DNA from: Candidatus Aminicenantota bacterium
Lineage (GTDB): Bacteria > Acidobacteriota > Aminicenantia > UBA2199
Assembly (NCBI GenBank): GCA_022865785.1
Contig: JALHTJ010000083.1
Coordinates: 1-34,275 of the forward strand
DNA length: 34,275 nucleotides
Direction: 5' to 3'
Below are positions 2,675 through 24,351 of the stretch, piece after piece. Below the pieces are notes generated by a model. It was given only the letters and a program-made list of their open reading frames with translations, was not told the DNA's origin and did not search any database. The stretch's first letter is position 1. Each line of letters begins with the position of its first letter. The position numbers were made by a program, and so were the translations under genes.

Positions 2675-4489
2675 TTACTTGGAAAATTCAGCAGTGAGAA
2701 TGCTGTTGATCATGATACGATAAGTTTTCATTTTTTTTAAAAGGGTTTCCAGCAATTCCACATCATTGCCTTCCAGGGCTTTCTGGGAACGGTTGATCAG
2801 TGCATCGATTTCTGCGCTGTCATGAGGAGACAATTTATCAATGTATCGCTGGTAATAAAACTTGACGGTTTCCCACTCCTCCTTCAGTTGCAATTTGTCC
2901 CGAGTCAGCCTCAACTCCATTTTGTCCTTTTCTTCATATTTTTGGGCATCCTGGATGATTGTTTCGATTTCTTCCGGCGACAAGCCGCTGGAAGGCTGGA
3001 TCTTCATGCTTTGGGTGAGACCGGTCGCCTTGTCCTGCGCCGAAGCCCTGACAATGCCATTGGCATCGATTTCAAATGTGACATCAATTTGCGGAATCCC
3101 TTTCAAGGTTTGGGGGATACCGACCAAATTGAAAAATCCGAGCGATTTGTTTCCCGAAGCCGTGGCCCTTTCTCCCTGGAGCACATGGATTTTTACCGTT
3201 GTCTGGTTATCGGTGATGGTAGTGAAAACCATGGTCTTTTTTGTGGGGATGGTGGCATTGCGTTCGATGATCTTGGTGAACATGTCACCTTTGGTTTCAA
3301 CTCCCAGCGAAAGGGGGGTTACGTCAAGCAACAGCAAATCACGGACCTTACCCTTGATTATTTCCGCCTGCAGCGCCGCGCCCTGGGCAACGGCTTCTTC
3401 CGGATTGATCTGAATGTCGGGCGGCTTTCCAAAATATTCTGATAATTTTTGATAAATAATGGGCATGCGGCTCTGGCCGCCCACCAAAATGATCCGCTCA
3501 ATCTGCTCGGGCTTGACATTGATATCGCCCAATGAACTCTTTATTAAATCCAGAGAGCGGTCAATGAAATCCATGGTGAAAGATTCCAACTGGGGGCGAG
3601 TCAATTTTTTTTGAAAATGATAATTGGAGCCGTCGCTGAAATGATGCAGGTAGGGAATTGAGATCAGGGTTTCCTGATCAAATGACAATTCGATTTTTGC
3701 TTTTTCGGCGATCTGAATGACACGTTGTACGATGTCCTTGCTATCCCGTAGGTCGACGGTACTTTCCCTTTCCACTTCATGGAAAATCCAGTCACAGACC
3801 TGGGCGTCGAAATCGCTGCCCCCCAAAAAAGTGTCCCCCAGGGTGGAAACCACTTTGTAGATATCGCCATTGACTTCAACGATGGAAATGTCAAAAGTGC
3901 CGCCACCCAGATCATAAACAGCATACAGGCCATTTTTCTTGATCTTCTGCCCATAGGAGATCAAAGCTGCTGTGGGTTCATTGATGATGCGTGTGACATT
4001 CAGTCCGGCAATTTCCCCGGCTACCTTGGTAGCCTGCCTTTGGGCATCATTGAAAAAAGCGGGGACCGTGATGACCGTGTCGCCGATGGCTTCTCCCAAA
4101 TAATTTTCAGCGATGTTTTTCAGATAGGTGAGGAACATGCCGGAAATTTCTTCGGTAGAATACAGCTTTTCCGCCAACTTGATCTTGATGTCCCCGTTCT
4201 CCGCCTCTACAATATCATAGCCAACCCTTGTGCCGATCTCCTTGATCTCCGGGCTGTTGAATTTGCGGCCGATCAAACGCTTGATGCCCCAAATTGTATT
4301 TTTGCCGTTTGTGATCATTTGCCGCTTGGCGGCATTGCCGAAAATCCTCTTTTTATCATGCGTTTGGGCCAGAACCGACGGGATCACCCTGGCGCCCTCG
4401 GGATTGGGAACGATCAGGGCATCACGCCCTTCAAGGTAACTGATGCAGGAATTCGTGGTGCCCAGATCGATACCTATGTTTTTGCCCAT
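2675..4489 (-). CDS. dnaK: Molecular chaperone DnaK (Hsp70)
   Basis: 604 aa; GIDLGTTNSCISYLEG, VITVPAFFNDAQRQATKVAGEIAGLNVTRIINEPTAA, YDLGGGTFDISI, LVGGQSRMP. Confidence 0.97.
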   Translation of the reverse strand: MGKNIGIDLGTTNSCISYLEGRDALIVPNPEGARVIPSVLAQTHDKKRIFGNAAKRQMITNGKNTIWGIKRLIGRKFNSPEIKEIGTRVGYDIVEAENGDIKIKLAEKLYSTEEISGMFLTYLKNIAENYLGEAIGDTVITVPAFFNDAQRQATKVAGEIAGLNVTRIINEPTAALISYGQKIKKNGLYAVYDLGGGTFDISIVEVNGDIYKVVSTLGDTFLGGSDFDAQVCDWIFHEVERESTVDLRDSKDIVQRVIQIAEKAKIELSFDQETLISIPYLHHFSDGSNYHFQKKLTRPQLESFTMDFIDRSLDLIKSSLGDINVKPEQIERIILVGGQSRMPIIYQKLSEYFGKPPDIQINPEEAVAQGAALQAEIIKGKVRDLLLLDVTPLSLGVETKGDMFTKIIERNATIPTKKTMVFTTITDNQTTVKIHVLQGERATASGNKSLGFFNLVGIPQTLKGIPQIDVTFEIDANGIVRASAQDKATGLTQSMKIQPSSGLSPEEIETIIQDAQKYEEKDKMELRLTRDKLQLKEEWETVKFYYQRYIDKLSPHDSAEIDALINRSQKALEGNDVELLETLLKKMKTYRIMINSILTAEFSK

Positions 4490-12458: not shown

Positions 12459-13640
12459 TCAGATCAGCCCCAACGACTTCCCGCCTTGTTTGAAACCTTT
12501 CAGGATGAAATCCAGGTCATCATCACTATGGGTGGCTGTAAATGAAGTCCGGATCAGGGAATCCTCTGGGGGAACCGCTGGCGCGATGACAGGATTGGTG
12601 AATACTCCATAATCACGCAAAAACTGCCAAAGCATGAAGGTTTTTTCCACATCGTGAATAAAAACCGGAATAATGGGCGTTTCGGTGTTGCCGGTATGAT
12701 AACCCATGGCCGTCAATTCCTTGTTCATGATCCGGGTGATTTCCCATAGGCGTTGGCGCCGCCATGGTTCGGCCTGAATGATTTCCAAAGCCTTGGACGC
12801 GGCCCCCAAAGCGGCCGGCGTGATCGAGGCGGAAAAGATCAACGCCCGGGCGTGGTGCTTGACATATTGGATGATCTTGCTGTCACCGACCACAAATCCT
12901 CCCAAGGAAGCGAAAGATTTGGAAAAGGTCGTCATGATCAGGTCAACCTCATCGACCAGTCCAAAATGTTCGGCCGTGCCCCGTCCCTTTTCACCCATGA
13001 CGCCGACGCCGTGGGCGTCGTCGACCATCAGCCGCGTGTGGTATTTTTTTGCCAGTTTGACGATCTGCGGCAGGTTGGAGAGATCGCCCTCCATGCTGAA
13101 GACGCCGTCCACAATGATCAACTTGCCTTTATCTGCAGGCTGATGGGCCAGTTTGTCTTCCAGGTCCTTCATATCGTTGTGCTTGAACTTGGCGATATGG
13201 GCGTAGGACAGGCGTACCGCGTCCATGATCGAAGCATGGACCATGCGGTCCAAAATGATGATATCATTGCGGCCGGCCAAAGCCGAAATGGCACCCAAGT
13301 TGGTCTGCATGCCGGTCGAAAAGGTAAGTGCTTCCTCTTTGCCCATAAATTGGGCCAATTTTTTTTCCAACTCAACATGCAAGGAATAGGTACCGTTTAA
13401 AAACCTTGAACCGCAAGTGGATGATCCGTATTTTTCCACCGCAGCAATTGTCGAAGCCTTTATCTTGGGGTCATCGAAAAGTCCAAGATAGTTGTTTGAG
13501 CCGACCATGAGGATCTTTTTACCGTTGACCCACACATAATTACCTTCCACCTTTTCAATCTCAGTGAAATAGGGATAGAGACCGGAGCTTTTAGCTTCTT
13601 CCGCCCGGGTGAATTCGTAGCATTTTTTAAAAACATCCAT
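12459..13640 (-). CDS. Alpha-oxoamine synthase family PLP enzyme, closest in motif pattern to bacterial serine palmitoyltransferase
   Basis: 393 aa; SGLYPYFTEIE, GSNNYLGLFDDPKI, GSRFLNGTYSLHVELE, VDGVFSMEGDL, MVDDAHGVGVMGEKGRGTAEHFG, MTTFSKSFASLGGF, LIFSASITPAALGAA. SD GAGGAG before ATG. Confidence 0.85.
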   Translation of the reverse strand: MDVFKKCYEFTRAEEAKSSGLYPYFTEIEKVEGNYVWVNGKKILMVGSNNYLGLFDDPKIKASTIAAVEKYGSSTCGSRFLNGTYSLHVELEKKLAQFMGKEEALTFSTGMQTNLGAISALAGRNDIIILDRMVHASIMDAVRLSYAHIAKFKHNDMKDLEDKLAHQPADKGKLIIVDGVFSMEGDLSNLPQIVKLAKKYHTRLMVDDAHGVGVMGEKGRGTAEHFGLVDEVDLIMTTFSKSFASLGGFVVGDSKIIQYVKHHARALIFSASITPAALGAASKALEIIQAEPWRRQRLWEITRIMNKELTAMGYHTGNTETPIIPVFIHDVEKTFMLWQFLRDYGVFTNPVIAPAVPPEDSLIRTSFTATHSDDDLDFILKGFKQGGKSLGLI

Positions 13641-13654
13641 GTTTCACTCCTCGT

Positions 13655-13683
13655 TTGCATATTTAAAACAGATTATATAGAAT
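13655..13683 (+). promoter_or_regulatory. Sigma70-like promoter, predicted leaderless, for the epimerase gene
   Basis: TTGCAT, 17-bp spacer, TAGAAT, TGCCCC (6 nt), ATG 13690; no SD. Confidence 0.6.
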
Positions 13684-13689
13684 TGCCCC

Positions 13690-14661
13690 ATGAAAATACT
13701 TGTAACCGGAGGCACGGGATTCATCGGCAGCCATCTGATCAGGGAACTGCTCAAAGATAGCCGCAACCAGGTGTACGCCCTTATTCGTGACGATATCAAA
13801 TTGGCAAGCTTTGATTTTAAAAATAATATTACCGCCATCCGCGGCGACCTGTTCCGCTCGGAACAATTTCCTGCCAATATTGAACTGGTTTTCCATCTGG
13901 CGGCTTTAACCAAGATCGTTTCTCCTCAAGAGTTCATTCACATCAATCATGAGGGCACGCTGTCACTTTTGGAAAAATTAAAACCGTTGAAAAATTTACA
14001 GAAAGTTATCCTGCTCTCTTCACTGGCTGCAGCCGGGCCCAATCGCGAACAGCCGGTTTTACGGGAAGAAATGCCGGCCCAGCCGATCTCGCTGTACGGG
14101 AAAAGCAAACTGGCGCAGGAAAGGCTTTTTCCCGAGCAGTGCCCGGCCCCGCATATCATCATCCGGGCACCGATCGTTTTCGGACCCGGCGACATGGATA
14201 TGCTGGAAGCCTTCCGCATGGTCCGCAAGGGAATGATTCCCGTACTCGGTAAAAAAGAACGGTGGTATTCCGTGATATACGTAAAAGATTTAGTGCGTGG
14301 CATGATCGCTGCCGCAGCCAGCCTTTGTCAAAACGAAGTTTTTTATATCGCCAATGCGCAACCCGTTGAATGGCAGAGTTTTCTGGAAGAAGTCTCCCGG
14401 CTGTTGGGAAGAAAAAAAATAAGAAAAATCGTAATCCCGGAAATTCTGGGCCGGATCCTGGCTGAACTTTCCGAAATGCGCATCCGCACCTTTAAAAGAA
14501 AGGCCATTTTCAACCGGGATAAATTTAATGAAATGAAATTTCCGGCCTGGGTGTGTTCGGCCGAAAAAATCGGCAATCTGCTTCATTTTCAACCCCAAAT
14601 CCCTTTACTTGAAGCTTTGCAAGAAACGATCCATTGGTACCAAGAGCAAAAAATGCTATGA
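13690..14661 (+). CDS. NAD-dependent epimerase/dehydratase (extended SDR); candidate ceramide-reductase-like partner
   Basis: 323 aa; LVTGGTGFIGSHLIRELL, LVFHLAALTKI, SLYGKSKLAQERL (YxxxK). Confidence 0.88.
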   Translation: MKILVTGGTGFIGSHLIRELLKDSRNQVYALIRDDIKLASFDFKNNITAIRGDLFRSEQFPANIELVFHLAALTKIVSPQEFIHINHEGTLSLLEKLKPLKNLQKVILLSSLAAAGPNREQPVLREEMPAQPISLYGKSKLAQERLFPEQCPAPHIIIRAPIVFGPGDMDMLEAFRMVRKGMIPVLGKKERWYSVIYVKDLVRGMIAAAASLCQNEVFYIANAQPVEWQSFLEEVSRLLGRKKIRKIVIPEILGRILAELSEMRIRTFKRKAIFNRDKFNEMKFPAWVCSAEKIGNLLHFQPQIPLLEALQETIHWYQEQKML

Positions 14662-14668
14662 CCGGGCT

Positions 14669-15145
14669 TCATTTTTTCTTGATTTTATAATTCCGGCGGG
14701 AAAAAAAATTGGCTGTGAATTTCTGGGTGGTTTTCACAGACCAGTTGTCCTGAAAGAGCATAGTAAAAATCACTTCACCGCTGACGGTCAGACTGCCGAT
14801 CAAGGCGCTTTCATTTAATTTGAAAGGGACTTCGATCTCTTTTTGCGGATCCAAAAAAATCCCCTCCTTTTCCTGGGTGGTCGGCAGGTTCAATTCCGAA
14901 CCGGCAAAAAATATTTTTGAAAAGGACAGGCTTTCATTTTCGTCCAAGCGGATCATGAACTCAGGATTGGCGGATATCTTGATGCCACTGCGCACATCGA
15001 TTTTGATCTTCAGCAGCCCATCATTGCCCTGAAGAATCGACCGAGGAGAAACCGTGCACTCGATCTTTAAAAAATCATCCTGGCATAATACATTGGAGAA
15101 AAACAAAAACAAGCAAATTATTAATAATACGCCATGTTTGGTCAT
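14669..15145 (-). CDS. Exported protein with DsbD N-terminal-like beta domain
   Basis: 158 aa; signal peptide MTKHGVLLIICLFLFFSNVLCQ; SPRSILQGNDGLLKIKIDVRSGIKISANP...QKEIEVPFKLN...VSGEVIFTMLFQDNWSVKTTQKFTANF. Confidence 0.55.
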   Translation of the reverse strand: MTKHGVLLIICLFLFFSNVLCQDDFLKIECTVSPRSILQGNDGLLKIKIDVRSGIKISANPEFMIRLDENESLSFSKIFFAGSELNLPTTQEKEGIFLDPQKEIEVPFKLNESALIGSLTVSGEVIFTMLFQDNWSVKTTQKFTANFFSRRNYKIKKK

Positions 15146-15159
15146 CTTGCCTTAACGTG

Positions 15160-15188
15160 AATATACTATATTTCAGCCAAACTGTCAA
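15160..15188 (-). promoter_or_regulatory. Sigma70-like promoter upstream of the DsbD-N-like gene
   Basis: Reverse strand TTGACA, 17-bp spacer, TATATT; predicted leader of only about 7 nt. Confidence 0.65.
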
Positions 15189-15233
15189 CCTGTCCCGCCC
15201 CGCAAGCATGTCCCCGGTTGAATTCCGGAGCAA

Positions 15234-15641
15234 TCAGTGTTTGCGAACTTTGTTGGTGAGAATATCATGGAGAGATACGGGCAAAAAATATTTTTCGATG
15301 GTTTTTTCAAGCATTTCCCAGACTTGTTTGGCCAAACAGGAGTCCTTTAATTCACATTTTTTGCCAAGCAGGCAATCGGCTAGCGATATCCGTTCATTGA
15401 AAGCGTCCATCAGCATCAGCAAAGTTATTTCTTCGGGCTTTTTATTCAACTCATAACCCCCGTAAATGCCCTGTACGCTTTTGATCAATCCGGCTTTTTC
15501 GAGCGGACCAGCCAATTTCCTGAGGTACTTAGGGGATACGCGCATGTCTTTTCCCAATCGGGTCGTATTCATTAGCTTACCGCTCTGGCCAATGGCGATC
15601 AACATGCGCAAACCATAACGGATCTTGGTGTTGACTTTCAT
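15234..15641 (-). CDS. Rrf2-family transcriptional regulator with Fe-S-type cysteine triad
   Basis: MKVNTKIRYGLRMLIAIGQ...RVSPKYLRKLAGPLEKAGLIKSVQGIYGGYELNK; CLLGKKCELKDSC (C-x5-C-x5-C). Start set at ATG 15641 instead of the track's 15677. Confidence 0.9.
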   Translation of the reverse strand: MKVNTKIRYGLRMLIAIGQSGKLMNTTRLGKDMRVSPKYLRKLAGPLEKAGLIKSVQGIYGGYELNKKPEEITLLMLMDAFNERISLADCLLGKKCELKDSCLAKQVWEMLEKTIEKYFLPVSLHDILTNKVRKH

Positions 15642-15648
15642 GCCTGAA

Positions 15649-15677
15649 AACATAACCTTTTTAGTATAATCTGTCAA
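15649..15677 (-). promoter_or_regulatory. Sigma70-like promoter, predicted leaderless, for the Rrf2 gene
   Basis: Reverse strand TTGACA, 17-bp spacer, TATGTT, TTCAGGC (7 nt), ATG 15641. Confidence 0.6.
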
Positions 15678-15699
15678 ATTTAAAATAATGGAATAAAAA

Positions 15700-15735
15700 A
15701 AAACCCCTTGTTTTTCGGGAAAAACAAGGGGTTTT
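15700..15735 (-). terminator. Rho-independent terminator of the TPR lipoprotein gene
   Basis: Perfect 16-bp inverted repeat AAAACCCCTTGTTTTT-CGGG-AAAAACAAGGGGTTTT; on the minus strand it continues as a T tract, just after the stop at 15740. Confidence 0.9.
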
Positions 15736-15739
15736 ATAA

Positions 15740-16735
15740 TTATTTATCTTTGGTCAAATCTTTCATGAATTGTTCGCTGGCCAGTTTACGTTTGCGCAGT
15801 TCCTGGAATTTCTGCACCATTTTTTCCCCTTCCTTATCATATTTGCCTTTGTTTAACGGCTCGGCAATGGATTTTTGCATGTAAAGCAATTTCATGTACG
15901 CCCAGGGATCGGGGAAATTGGGCGATAACTCGGCCGATTTTTTCAAGGCTTCAAAACCTTTATCCACAACTTGCAAGCGTTCGACCGATCCCATGACGTC
16001 AGGCGGGGTTTGGTAGCTTTTGTTCCAGCATACCACTCCCAGGCGATAATAGGCGTCTGCCAGGAGATCGTTTTTCTCCTTTTCATCCAGATCGGATTCG
16101 CTGATTTTCGTGATCCTCAATTCATGGTTTTGAATGGCTTCGTCCCATTTTCGTTTATCCTGGAAAAATCCGGCCAGATAAAGATAGCCTTCGGGGTCGC
16201 TGGGATTCAAAGCAATCCTTTTTTCATACATCTCAATGGCTTTGTCATACTTGCCGTTGTTATTGTAAAAACCGGCCAGGTTGTAATACGAAACAGGATC
16301 GTCAGGAGTGAATTTCTGCACTTGCAGGTAATACTTCTCAGCAAGATCAAAATTTCTCATTTTGTCGCTGATGTCACCCAGGGCCTGAAGGATGTCTTTG
16401 TTTTCCGGATTCAGTTCCAAAGCTTTCTGAAGGTAGTCGGTGGCCTTTTTGCCGTATTCCATGTTTTTTTCCGAATCATCACCAGGCCTGTAAACCATAA
16501 TGCAACTGGAACCGATATAATAAAAAGCGGCTTTCAGATTGGGATTAAGCTGCAGGGCAGCCTCGTATTCAGTGATAGCTTTTTTGAATTTTTCCTCGCT
16601 ATAGTATCTGTTGCCTGTTTTAAAATGCTTGTTGGCTTTCAAATTGGATATTTTCAATTTGTCGCAAGCAGTGAAACTTGTAATGATCAAGGTGGTCAAA
16701 AACATTATGAGCAGGACCGACCATAGTTTTTTCAT
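15740..16735 (-). CDS. TPR-repeat lipoprotein
   Basis: 331 aa; lipobox-like SFTAC after hydrophobic segment; repeats such as FKKAITEYEAALQLNPNLKAAFYYIGSS and YDKAIEMYEKRIALNPSDPEGYLYLAGFF. Confidence 0.85.
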   Translation of the reverse strand: MKKLWSVLLIMFLTTLIITSFTACDKLKISNLKANKHFKTGNRYYSEEKFKKAITEYEAALQLNPNLKAAFYYIGSSCIMVYRPGDDSEKNMEYGKKATDYLQKALELNPENKDILQALGDISDKMRNFDLAEKYYLQVQKFTPDDPVSYYNLAGFYNNNGKYDKAIEMYEKRIALNPSDPEGYLYLAGFFQDKRKWDEAIQNHELRITKISESDLDEKEKNDLLADAYYRLGVVCWNKSYQTPPDVMGSVERLQVVDKGFEALKKSAELSPNFPDPWAYMKLLYMQKSIAEPLNKGKYDKEGEKMVQKFQELRKRKLASEQFMKDLTKDK

Positions 16736-16758
16736 GAAAACCTCCTAAACAAGATAAC

Positions 16759-16787
16759 TTTATAATTTAATATTGAGAAAAAGTCAA
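16759..16787 (-). promoter_or_regulatory. Sigma70-like promoter of the TPR lipoprotein gene
   Basis: Reverse strand TTGACT, 17-bp spacer, TATAAA; followed by SD AGGAGG. Confidence 0.7.
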
Positions 16788-16814
16788 GTCGTTGAGGTTG
16801 TTTTTTTGGTGATT

Positions 16815-17159
16815 TCATTTTACCCGGTAGAACCAAAACAAAAAAAGCCACAGATCATGGATATAGGGGATCGCCTTGTTGTTCAGAAAGATTTTCGTGG
16901 TTTCATGATCTTTGACAAGTTCAAAGAGGTTGAAAAGATCCTCGACCTCGGCCGGATAGAAACTGGCGTAAGCTTTATAAAAATCACCTTCGCCTTCCTC
17001 CATGAAATACTTGTTTTGTCTGGCCAGTTCCAGGGCTTTTTCAAAATTCTTTGAAAAGCGTTTTTGAAAACGGATCGTGATCTTGAATTCCCGGTTTGAT
17101 TTGCGGGGATTCAGAATATTCTGCAGTTTTTCTTCCTGAATTTGCTGTCGGGCGTCCAT
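16815..17159 (-). CDS. Hypothetical protein, 114 aa
   Basis: Intact ORF preceded by a strong promoter; no family recognised. Confidence 0.6.
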   Translation of the reverse strand: MDARQQIQEEKLQNILNPRKSNREFKITIRFQKRFSKNFEKALELARQNKYFMEEGEGDFYKAYASFYPAEVEDLFNLFELVKDHETTKIFLNNKAIPYIHDLWLFLFWFYRVK

Positions 17160-17165
17160 GGCCGG

Positions 17166-17194
17166 ATTATAATACAGCCTGCCGCTTTAGTAAA
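17166..17194 (-). promoter_or_regulatory. Sigma70-like promoter, predicted leaderless, for the 114-aa ORF
   Basis: Reverse strand TTTACT, 17-bp spacer, TATAAT, CCGGCC (6 nt), ATG 17159. Confidence 0.65.
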
Positions 17195-17241
17195 GCCGGC
17201 TAGCTTTGTGTTCCATCCTTGAGAAATCAGTCTTTTCCTTT

Positions 17242-18297
17242 TTAAGTATAATTGCCCTTAGCGGCCAGCATTTTCTCCCAGGTCGTGCGGAAGATCTCCG
17301 GCATGTTCAGGTGGTAGGGGCATTTTTGCACGCACTGCCCGCAGGCAACACAATCCTTGTAGGTCTTGGCCATCGCGCCGATCCTTTCCCATGCCCAGTC
17401 CTGCAGATCGTAGAGAAAATAATAATTTTTCAGCACATGCAAAAAAGAGATCGGAAGTCCCTGGGGACAGGGCATGCAGTATTCGCAGCGCCGGCAAAAA
17501 CTATCGCCTAACCGGTCCTTTTCCTTCTGCAGCCGGGCGGTTTCCTCAAGCGTCAATGGCGACAGGTCGGCCAAAACCGCCACGTTCTCCTCGATCTGTT
17601 TTTCCGAATCCATGCCTGGGATGGCCACGTTAACTCCCTGGTTGAAAATAAAGCGGAAATTCAAATCGATCTCCGAGATATTGCCACCGCCTATCGGCTT
17701 CATGGCGATAATACCTATCTGCCTCTGGCGCGCCATGGGGATGAGTTCTTGCATGGCTTCGGTTTCCATAAAATTGCAGGGGACCTGAATGGTTTCAAAA
17801 GCAAAGCGCTCAAGGGCCATGGTCACGATCCTGGGCTTGTGTCCGGAAAGTCCGATATGGCGGATCTTCCCCTGCTCTTTGGCCTTGATCAGCCCGGCCA
17901 CAGCTCCGTGGACAGCAAAGATTTTTTCCAGATCGTCTGCACTGGCAATGTTATGACATTGATAAATATCGATATAGTCGGTTCGCAATTGCTTCAAACT
18001 GGCTTCGATATCCGTCAGGACCGTTGCCGCGTCACGATTGAAAGATTTGCTGGCGATGATTACCCGAGTGCGATAGCGGGGAAGGACCCGGCCGAATTTG
18101 CTTTCACTATCGGTATAAATGCGGGCAGTATCGAAAAAATTGATCCCCGCCGCCACGGCTTTTTCCAAGACCCGGTCCGACTGCTTCACATCAAGGCGCT
18201 GTATCGGGATCCCTCCCATGCCCATTTTCAGGACTTTTATTCCTGCGGCGACAACACTAGTTTTTTCGGCCAATTCCGACTGCATGGCTTCAGGCAT
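17242..18297 (-). CDS. Aldo/keto reductase with C-terminal 4Fe-4S ferredoxin domain
   Basis: AKR core (FFDTARIYTDSESKFGRVL, VIIASKSFNRD, YIDIYQCHNI, HIGLSGHKP) and Cys motifs CRRCEYCMPCPQGLPI and CVACGQCVQKCPYHL. Start placed at ATG 18297, overlapping the maf stop by 8 nt. Confidence 0.9.
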   Translation of the reverse strand: MPEAMQSELAEKTSVVAAGIKVLKMGMGGIPIQRLDVKQSDRVLEKAVAAGINFFDTARIYTDSESKFGRVLPRYRTRVIIASKSFNRDAATVLTDIEASLKQLRTDYIDIYQCHNIASADDLEKIFAVHGAVAGLIKAKEQGKIRHIGLSGHKPRIVTMALERFAFETIQVPCNFMETEAMQELIPMARQRQIGIIAMKPIGGGNISEIDLNFRFIFNQGVNVAIPGMDSEKQIEENVAVLADLSPLTLEETARLQKEKDRLGDSFCRRCEYCMPCPQGLPISFLHVLKNYYFLYDLQDWAWERIGAMAKTYKDCVACGQCVQKCPYHLNMPEIFRTTWEKMLAAKGNYT

Positions 18298-18862
18298 ACA
18301 AATCCAATTCCCGCTCACCAAGCATACGGTAAAACAGATTCAAGGGAAACCCCATGACATTGAAGAAACAACCGTCGATCCTTTCGACAAAAATAGCTGC
18401 CCGCCCCTGAATGGCATAGGCGCCAGCCTTATCCATGAAATTTTCGTGGTCAAGATAAAAATTGATTTCCCTTTCTTGAAGCGGCTTGAAATAGACATGG
18501 GTTCTGGAAATGGCAAAACGGGTATCGCCATGATACATAAGGGCCAGGCCGGTCAAAACCTCATGGCGCTGACCGGAAAGCTGGTTCAACATCCTGAAGG
18601 CATCGTCACGATCCGCGGGTTTGCCGATCAACGAATCATTAAGCAGAACTACGGTATCGGCGCTGATGAGCAAATGGGAGAAATGTTTTTTTTTATACAC
18701 CTCAATGCCCTTGGAGATGGTCACCCTTTCCAAAAAAGCATCGATCGCTTCAGCCGGCCTTACCACCTCATTGATATCCGGGGGGATGATCTCCGGGTTC
18801 AGGCCAATCAATTGCAGCAATTCTTTCCGCCGCGGCGAAGCGGAAGCCAATACGATTTTCAT
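18290..18862 (-). CDS. maf: Maf-family nucleoside triphosphate pyrophosphatase
   Basis: 190 aa; IVLASASPRRKELLQLIGL, LLISADTVVLLNDSLIGKP, YAIQGRAAIFVERIDGCFFNVMGFPL. Confidence 0.94.
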   Translation of the reverse strand: MKIVLASASPRRKELLQLIGLNPEIIPPDINEVVRPAEAIDAFLERVTISKGIEVYKKKHFSHLLISADTVVLLNDSLIGKPADRDDAFRMLNQLSGQRHEVLTGLALMYHGDTRFAISRTHVYFKPLQEREINFYLDHENFMDKAGAYAIQGRAAIFVERIDGCFFNVMGFPLNLFYRMLGERELDLYA

Positions 18863-19299
18863 ATTTTAAAGAACTCTTTGATCCTGCATTCGTAAGGAGT
18901 CGCGATAGCCAGTTTTTCTCCTCTTTGTAAAAATTGCTTCAGTTCCACCAGGGATTTTATCTTGTGCGTATCAAAAATTTTAAAAATGGTTTTGGGCCCG
19001 ATCCCCTTGATCTGAGACATGCCAAATAAACTTTCGGGAAATTCAAAAAGCAATTCATCTAAAATTTTCAGGGAGCCGATGATGACCAGATCTTCCACTT
19101 TCTGAGCCAGAATTTTCCCAATACCCTCGATTTTCGTCAGATCCTCTCCAGCCAAAAGTATGTCTTCAATGGCAACCGGCAATTCACGGATGCTCTTGGC
19201 CGCCTTGAAATAGGCACTGACCTTGAATTCATTTTCATCTTTAAGGGAGAGGAAAAAAGCCACCTTGTCAAAAACATTGGCAATTTCCTGGTTGTTCAT
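18859..19299 (-). CDS. Stand-alone helix-hairpin-helix protein resembling the N-terminal domain of PolX / DNA polymerase beta
   Basis: 146 aa; NNQEIANVFDKVAFFLSLKDENEFKVSAYFKAAKSIRELP, DLTKIEGIGKILAQKVEDLV, MSQIKGIGPKTIFKIF (two HhH motifs); no polymerase palm or PHP domain follows. Confidence 0.8.
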   Translation of the reverse strand: MNNQEIANVFDKVAFFLSLKDENEFKVSAYFKAAKSIRELPVAIEDILLAGEDLTKIEGIGKILAQKVEDLVIIGSLKILDELLFEFPESLFGMSQIKGIGPKTIFKIFDTHKIKSLVELKQFLQRGEKLAIATPYECRIKEFFKI

Positions 19300-19343
19300 T
19301 TTTGAAATCTTTTATGAATGCTTTTTTCTCGCGTGAATTTCAT
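19296..19343 (-). CDS. Putative 15-aa leaderless leader ORF coupled to the HhH gene (MKFTREKSIHKRFQK)
   Basis: ATG 7 nt after the -10 TATGAT; stop TGA overlaps the next ATG as ATGA. Confidence 0.45.
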   Translation of the reverse strand: MKFTREKSIHKRFQK

Positions 19344-19350
19344 CGATCCA

Positions 19351-19379
19351 ATCATAGCAAAATTCTCATTAAAAGTAAA
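19351..19379 (-). promoter_or_regulatory. Sigma70-like promoter upstream of the HhH-maf-AKR genes
   Basis: Reverse strand TTTACT, 17-bp spacer, TATGAT. Confidence 0.65.
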
Positions 19380-19380
19380 T

Positions 19381-19409
19381 TTGACATTAGCGCAAATCTT
19401 GAATAGAAT
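19381..19409 (+). promoter_or_regulatory. Sigma70-like promoter, predicted leaderless, for the P-loop kinase gene
   Basis: TTGACA, 17-bp spacer, TAGAAT, TCGGCC (6 nt), ATG 19416. Confidence 0.7.
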
Positions 19410-19415
19410 TCGGCC

Positions 19416-20000
19416 ATGCATAAGATTGCCTTTTCGGGAATCCCCGGCAGCGGCAAAACATCTATTTGGGCCGAAGTGAAAAAATTGCTGTCTCTGAAAT
19501 TCCGCGTGGAGGAAGTTGCGGATCTGAAGCTGAACAGCCCTTTTGATTTCGACCAAAAAGCCGGTTTTGTCAGCCAATTTTATTTTATCAGCAACCAGAT
19601 CAACGAAGAGAACATCCGCTCGCTGGCTCATCCCGATTTCCTCCTTTGCGACGGTTCGCTTCTGGATCAATGGCTGGAATGGCAGCGATTCCTGACTGAA
19701 AAAAAAAGCATCGCCCAGCTGGCGGAAAAAAGCGCTCTTATGGAAAATCTTTTCCGGTTCTGGATGCCCACCTATACCAAGACGTTCCGCATACGCCTGG
19801 ACGCGCAAATATTGGAAAAGAGGGCTCCCAAGGACGGATTGCGCGAATATCCTCTGGAGCGCTGCCCCCAGCTGGACGAGCTGTACGACCGCATCATTAA
19901 GCAAAACCGGATCCAAGCCAGCGATATCTGGAATCATCAATCGGTTGACGAAAGCGCCCAGGAAGTCATGAAACAGCTTGCGAACTTGAAGTTGATTTGA
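19416..20000 (+). CDS. P-loop ATPase/kinase (AAA_28 / NadR-kinase-like)
   Basis: 194 aa; Walker A GIPGSGKTS; FLLCDGSLLDQWLEW; KTFRIRLD. Confidence 0.75.
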   Translation: MHKIAFSGIPGSGKTSIWAEVKKLLSLKFRVEEVADLKLNSPFDFDQKAGFVSQFYFISNQINEENIRSLAHPDFLLCDGSLLDQWLEWQRFLTEKKSIAQLAEKSALMENLFRFWMPTYTKTFRIRLDAQILEKRAPKDGLREYPLERCPQLDELYDRIIKQNRIQASDIWNHQSVDESAQEVMKQLANLKLI

Positions 20001-23641: not shown

Positions 23642-23670
23642 TTGACTGAGGCCGGTATTTATGCTATTTT
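23642..23670 (+). promoter_or_regulatory. Sigma70-like promoter of the M50-trpS-scpAB operon
   Basis: TTGACT, 17-bp spacer, TATTTT (TGc extended -10); ATG 9 nt downstream, no SD. Confidence 0.6.
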
Positions 23671-23679
23671 TTTGAGATC

Positions 23680-24351
23680 ATGACAGACATATTCCGCATC
23701 GTCATCCAGTTTGCCGTCGTTCTCTTTGCCATATCGATCCATGAGTCGGCCCACGCCTGGGTCGCCGACCGCTGCGGCGACCCCACGGCCAAGCTGATGG
23801 GCCGGGTCACCCTGAATCCCATCGCCCATATCGATCTCATCGGCACCATTATTTTCCCAATCCTGCTGGCGGTTATGGGGGCCCCTGTCTTCGGGTGGGC
23901 CAAACCGGTCATGGTCAATCCCTATAACCTGCGCAACCGCCGCCGCGACGGCATGTTCATTTCCGCGGCCGGTCCGATTTCCAACATTTTGGTCGCCCTA
24001 GGAGTGATCATATTGCTTGGACTTTTTAGCAATCCCATCATGCAGTCAACCAGCACCAGCATCGCCTTGTTAATAAAAATTGCCACTTATTTGCTGATGA
24101 TCAACATTTTCCTGGCCGTGTTCAACCTGATCCCGATCCCGCCCCTGGACGGCAGCGGTATCTTGGAGGGATTGCTTAAGGGCGAGGCCCTGGTCATGTT
24201 TGAAAAGATCAAACCCTATGGCTTTTTTATTCTTTTGTTAATTATCTACACCCATGCTCTTGATTCCATAGCCAATTTTATTTTTACCATTCTTTTTAAA
24301 ACCTTTCCTTTTTTGATTTTCATCATGATGAAGGCGGGAGTGGTCGGATGA
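23680..24351 (+). CDS. Site-2 protease family (M50) membrane metalloprotease
   Basis: 223 aa; ISIHESAHAWVADRCGDPTAKLMGRVTLNP (HExxH), FNLIPIPPLDGSGIL (second metal-binding motif). Confidence 0.94.
   Translation: MTDIFRIVIQFAVVLFAISIHESAHAWVADRCGDPTAKLMGRVTLNPIAHIDLIGTIIFPILLAVMGAPVFGWAKPVMVNPYNLRNRRRDGMFISAAGPISNILVALGVIILLGLFSNPIMQSTSTSIALLIKIATYLLMINIFLAVFNLIPIPPLDGSGILEGLLKGEALVMFEKIKPYGFFILLLIIYTHALDSIANFIFTILFKTFPFLIFIMMKAGVVG

Follow-up and report, generated by a model that had tools for sequence, protein, structure and literature searches.

RNA polymerase initiates transcription approximately 7 nt past the -10 box, and leaderless mRNAs are recognized by their 5'-terminal AUG through a 70S/initiator-tRNA route. 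According to the parts of the study by Zheng et al. (2011, PMC3160421) that were consulted, TA-led genes occur in 207 of 953 bacterial genomes. These include all three Acidobacteria genomes, with a mean of 13.3% of genes (9.7–19.4), a larger share than the one found here (lower bound about 8% of first genes). The TA-led genes described in those parts have a TANNNT that precedes the start codon by approximately 12 bp and lack an SD, as do the genes considered below; Aminicenantes are not mentioned by name in them. In Deinococcus-Thermus, the -10 motif beside ORFs was tested by Zhong et al. (2025, PMC12340547), who also scanned all bacterial phyla; that group and the present one share a TANNNT promoter 6–7 bp before the ORF, in genomes where an RBS motif is found as well. 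In mycobacteria, leaderless and leadered genes coexist, as they do here, according to the consulted parts of two reports (PMC3898074, PMC4633059). In Deinococcus-Thermus about 30% of ORFs are concerned and promoter activity is experimental, and the mycobacterial leaderless mRNAs are backed by TSS maps and ribosome profiles, whereas here a minority of genes is concerned and the evidence comes from the sequence only. GeneMarkS-2 (Lomsadze 2018, via PMC9581028) predicted that 21.6% of bacterial species use leaderless transcription; its leaderless-class bacteria likewise mix promoter-led and SD-led starts.

The window, i.e., the whole stretch of DNA analyzed (34,275 nt), belongs to a MAG of Candidatus Aminicenantes (Acidobacteriota) of 3.05 Mb in 355 contigs; 16S was not found in this genome bin. 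Four of its genes have a promoter directly before the start codon. Below, Nx means that x nt separate the -10 box from the start codon.

13655..13660, + strand: epimerase -35 box TTGCAT, read from the sequence (TTTGCA at 13654 is an alternative reading that makes the spacer 18 bp)
13678..13683, + strand: epimerase -10 box TAGAAT, 17 bp after the -35 box, N6, ATG at 13690
13690..14661, + strand: NAD-dependent epimerase/dehydratase gene, predicted leaderless (PF01370, 1.4e-28)
15672..15677, - strand: rrf2 -35 box TTGACA, read from the sequence, kept in all orthologues
15649..15654, - strand: rrf2 -10 box TATGTT, 17-bp spacer, N7, ATG at 15641
15234..15641, - strand: gene of an Rrf2-family regulator, predicted leaderless (PF02082, 1.2e-28)
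17189..17194, - strand: -35 box TTTACT of the 114-aa ORF, read from the sequence
17166..17171, - strand: -10 box TATAAT of the 114-aa ORF, 17-bp spacer, N6, ATG at 17159
16815..17159, - strand: gene of an uncharacterized 114-aa protein conserved across the class, predicted leaderless
19381..19386, + strand: kinase -35 box TTGACA, read from the sequence
19404..19409, + strand: kinase -10 box TAGAAT, 17-bp spacer, N6, ATG at 19416
19416..20000, + strand: gene of a P-loop nucleotide-binding protein (the kinase), predicted leaderless, Walker A GIPGSGKTS read from the sequence

When these promoters were re-read letter by letter, the coordinates, spacers and gaps given for them in the original prediction all matched, and the sequence reading found no SD upstream of any of the four genes (0/4). 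In a simple promoter scan, rrf2, the 114-aa ORF and the kinase gene had their promoters at identical positions, and that of the epimerase was shifted by one base (TTTGCA, 18 bp). In the Pfam searches, the 114-aa protein had no match, and the similarity of the P-loop protein to AAA_28 (E 1.3e-4) fell under the cut-off. The exact 17-bp spacing and the -10 box ending 6–7 nt before the ATG, both put forward as the common layout, stand for the four window genes; genome-wide, 17 bp is the commonest spacer but 16 and 18 bp occur, and some sites elsewhere are at N8–N9. Because of the latter, "leaderless or with a 1–3 nt leader" is the more exact wording. We estimate the probability at about 0.9 that sigma70-type promoters in this organism yield leaderless or near-leaderless mRNAs at a minority of first genes, alongside SD-led genes.

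The coexistence of the two modes is visible within the window. The genes that had been named as SD-led were confirmed as such, with GGAGG before the ferritin/bfr-like gene, AGGAGG before the genes of the TPR lipoprotein and the aminotransferase, AAGGAG before gcvH and GAGGAG before the SPT-like gene. A fifth promoter is close to the layout of the four:

23642..23670, + strand: near-leaderless promoter of an M50 peptidase gene (PF02163; ATG at 23680), TTGACT-17-TATTTT, N9

No strong SD was found before this gene, and its mRNA is predicted to have a leader of 2–3 nt. The 158-aa ORF at 14669-15145 has TTGACA-17-TATATT (15145-15188 region) with 14 nt to the ATG; the predicted leader of approximately 7–8 nt would be intermediate between leaderless and SD-led.

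Genome-wide statistics were obtained for a 757-kb sample of the MAG, whose genes were called with a hexamer coding model blind to upstream sequence and motifs and were split into 266 transcription-unit-first and 288 internal genes. The strict pattern searches (TTGAC, 16–18 bp, TANNNT, N6, ATG) covered the entire genome, with the reversed pattern as a control; since this control is not positional, the N13 spacing in the same genomes was added. The original prediction had made itself dependent on an excess of -10 hexamers at this spacing across the genome, and a sharp peak at N6 with a shoulder at N7–N9 was found. TANNNT stands at exactly N6 in 22 of the 266 first genes of the sample, compared with 5.8 expected from other positions (Poisson 2.5e-7), and dinucleotide shuffles gave 4.7 ± 2.0 (maximum 11 in 200). 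The strict pattern occurs 52 times at N6 and 6 times at N13 in the entire genome, against one reversed control. The enrichment is almost confined to genes that head transcription units and goes together with -35 boxes and loss of the SD. A -35 box with at least 4/6 matches precedes 22 of 31 N6/N7 genes, compared with 42 of the 244 genes that lack a -10 box at N6 (P = 2e-9). Of the 22 N6 genes, 12 have TTG at exactly -35 relative to the start codon (0–3 at the other positions examined). An SD core was found in 1 of the 31 N6/N7 genes; among the remaining first genes it occurs in 85 of 235, and among internal genes in 109 of 288. With a scored version of the -10 box at N6–N8, the excess was 19–23 among 288 first genes vs. 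2.6–2.9 among 270 internal genes (19.3/288 vs. 2.6/270 at the same threshold); with the same pipeline, it was 14.5/157 in close Aminicenantes loci and 1.0 among 333 first genes when loci from other phyla were pooled.

These figures bear on the objection that TANNNT is frequent in AT-rich intergenic DNA and that four good cases were picked by chance. The four cases were indeed picked by eye, and TANNNT by itself is common, its background in first genes being 5.8 per position on average, about 2%. However, an excess tied to one position in the sample and the strict whole-genome pattern refute this explanation, and the -35 coupling and the orthologue conservation described below also speak against it; we regard chance as vanishingly improbable.

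When the gap was left free from 0 to 15 nt, the 94 distinct sites listed comprised 5 at N5, 32 at N6, 11 at N7, 11 at N8, 7 at N9 and 0–6 at the others. Among the 32 N6 sites of this list, 23 have a 17-bp spacer and 22 have C at -1, which is compatible with the expected C/A transcription start. Transcription from the typical site would therefore have its +1 at the A of the ATG, and a smaller number of sites would give leaders of 1–3 nt. GTG starts are common in mycobacterial leaderless mRNAs; they are rare here, where the 22 N6 first genes start with ATG in 20 cases, GTG in one (1/22) and TTG in one. Pfam scans of 30 proteins, mostly of N6/N7 genes, revealed no evident functional theme in this small sample.

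With a start-choice mixture model, TATAAT and TTGAnA emerged at a 17-bp spacing, and a model blind to the -35 box placed the 17-bp spacing in 21 of 59 cases, against 0–9 at other spacings. The leaderless counts of the mixture model were rejected: with shuffled upstream sequences, 92–101 of about 267 first genes still fell into the TA class, vs. 84 of 261 in the real data. Because this shuffle control failed, the proportions were dropped, and the leaderless share was taken from the positional excess only. It amounts to about 8% of first genes, a lower bound since start calls are noisy.

The -10/ATG spacing was expected to be conserved in relatives, and this was found for all four window genes: in the family of the window, every orthologue examined has its -10 box 6–9 nt from the ATG. 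Among the promoters listed, of which some are closely related and hence not independent, the epimerase gene has TANAAT at N6–N8 in 17 of 17, with the -35 box 17 or 18 bp upstream, rrf2 has its -10 box at N6 or N7 in 10 of 10 (TATATA in one), and the kinase gene shows N6 in 5 of 5. The spacing is constant while spacers and discriminators vary. Epimerase orthologues at 35–41% identity keep N6–N8 though other upstream sequence has changed, and the -35 box is kept in close orthologues and is TTGACC or TTGACG in distant ones; the upstream conservation at this gene is partly due to the SD and leader of the divergent gene.

It could be argued that the promoters are true and the start codons wrong, so that a downstream in-frame codon with an SD is used and the mRNAs carry ordinary leaders. 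MAG start calls are frequently wrong, and the motif-blind gene caller used here misplaced some starts. Against this, the epimerase start is fixed by homology through the Rossmann GxxGxxG (MKILVTGGTGFIG), that of the P-loop protein through Walker A (MHKIAFSGIPGSGKTS) and that of the regulator through the Rrf2 N-terminus. These three starts sit a few residues ahead of invariant motifs and therefore leave a later start little room. Upstream, the epimerase gene, the 114-aa ORF and the kinase gene have zero in-frame starts, rrf2 being the exception. The same start codon is found in orthologues, and an artefact would yield neither a peak at exactly N6 nor SD depletion. We consider misplaced starts highly improbable.

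From the promoter anatomy, the statistics, the link with first genes, the lack of SD and the conservation, all of them observed, we infer the transcription start and the translation mode as follows. Housekeeping sigma70-type promoters (TTGAnA, 17 bp, TATAAT) would drive a minority of unit-heading genes, with the -10 box ending 6, also 7 and less often 8–9 nt ahead of the start codon. Since RNA polymerase normally initiates some 7 nt beyond the -10 box, the 5' end of the transcript would coincide with the A of the ATG, as at N6, or lie at most 3 nt ahead of it. Such an mRNA would have no room for an SD, and translation would probably start with recognition of the AUG at its 5' end. Genes inside operons, like most of the remaining first genes, would use an ordinary AGGAGG SD or have no clear signal.

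A -10 box predicts a start site without proving it, and an additional upstream promoter could add leadered transcripts. In one alternative, the promoters are real but secondary, the main transcripts come leadered from upstream, and SD-free translation proceeds via S1 or low structure. The 114-aa ORF and rrf2 lie 80–100 nt after same-strand genes, so that read-through into both is possible. Immediately after the TPR lipoprotein gene, and approximately 23 bp before the -35 box of rrf2, lies a hairpin (15700-15735). Its stem has 16 pairs, both strands carry T-rich tails, and it looks like a terminator; this strong structure between the TPR gene and the rrf2 promoter argues against read-through there. 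The epimerase and kinase genes are divergent from their upstream neighbors, and a fixed -10/ATG distance is kept, which also counts against main transcripts from upstream. This alternative appears very unlikely, and transcription starting at or next to the ATG remains the preferred reading.

The gap between the SPT-like and epimerase genes (13641-13689, 49 bp) contains two -10 boxes back to back, TATAAT on the - strand at 13677-13672 and TAGAAT on the + strand at 13678-13683. The SPT-like gene has its own SD in this gap:

13647..13652, - strand: SD GAGGAG of the divergent SPT-like gene (ATG at 13640), kept in orthologues

The - strand TATAAT would give a leader of approximately 25 nt with the conserved SD, and the + strand TAGAAT a leaderless mRNA. 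In several relatives, the paired boxes form a perfect palindrome, ATTCTATAGAAT. No -35 box was found at the standard distance on the SPT-like side, and a shared bidirectional promoter is for this reason only noted here. Outside the window, the relA/spoT-like gene (L153, 1683-3830, - strand) and the rsmD-like gene (3921-4469, + strand) diverge over 90 bp. Both arms of this intergenic region look leaderless, because both -10 boxes are close to the ATG in most readable members of the genus.

The 114-aa protein is present in 33 of 40 Aminicenantia genomes (34–100% identity). Its gene has N6 in 11 and N9 in one of the 12 readable members of the window's family, with no SD, and has an SD instead in most members of families f3, f5, f6 and f7 of the same class (36–53% identity). 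In f2 and f9, the -10 box is again at N6, with less certain start codons. Because the gene is SD-led in several sister families, the initiation mode appears to switch between lineages. The window's family had strict N6:N13 counts of 166:32, f2 of 63:10 and f9 of 25:6. In f3, f5 and f8 of the Aminicenantia, the ratio was near 1:1 with no N6 excess, so the signal is not class-wide. Among distant Acidobacteriota families, the counts were 126:14 in f13 and 55:8 in f41. Genomes of these two families (G005, G020 and G060) have 55–69 strict N6 sites each, similar to the window's genome, and most others fewer than 10. Judging from these counts, the leaderless layout is phylum-wide but patchy in Acidobacteriota. 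It is a tentative and rather doubtful idea that leaderless starts, kept gene by gene, are a selected, switchable per-gene property, possibly one that determines the set of proteins produced under stress or during slow growth.

The literature search found no paper joining Aminicenantes with leaderless initiation. Aminicenantes are a new lineage for an already known mode, since the mode was predicted for Acidobacteria in the consulted parts of the 2011 study (PMC3160421), and the general picture published then is unchanged. Leaderless initiation is now well supported, at the level of sequence, in the uncultured Aminicenantes, and specific predicted start sites are named for the four genes. Gene callers that rely on the SD may misplace starts in this group. 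The 114-aa gene, predicted to be leaderless in one family and SD-led in its sisters, provides a usable case for initiation-mode switching.
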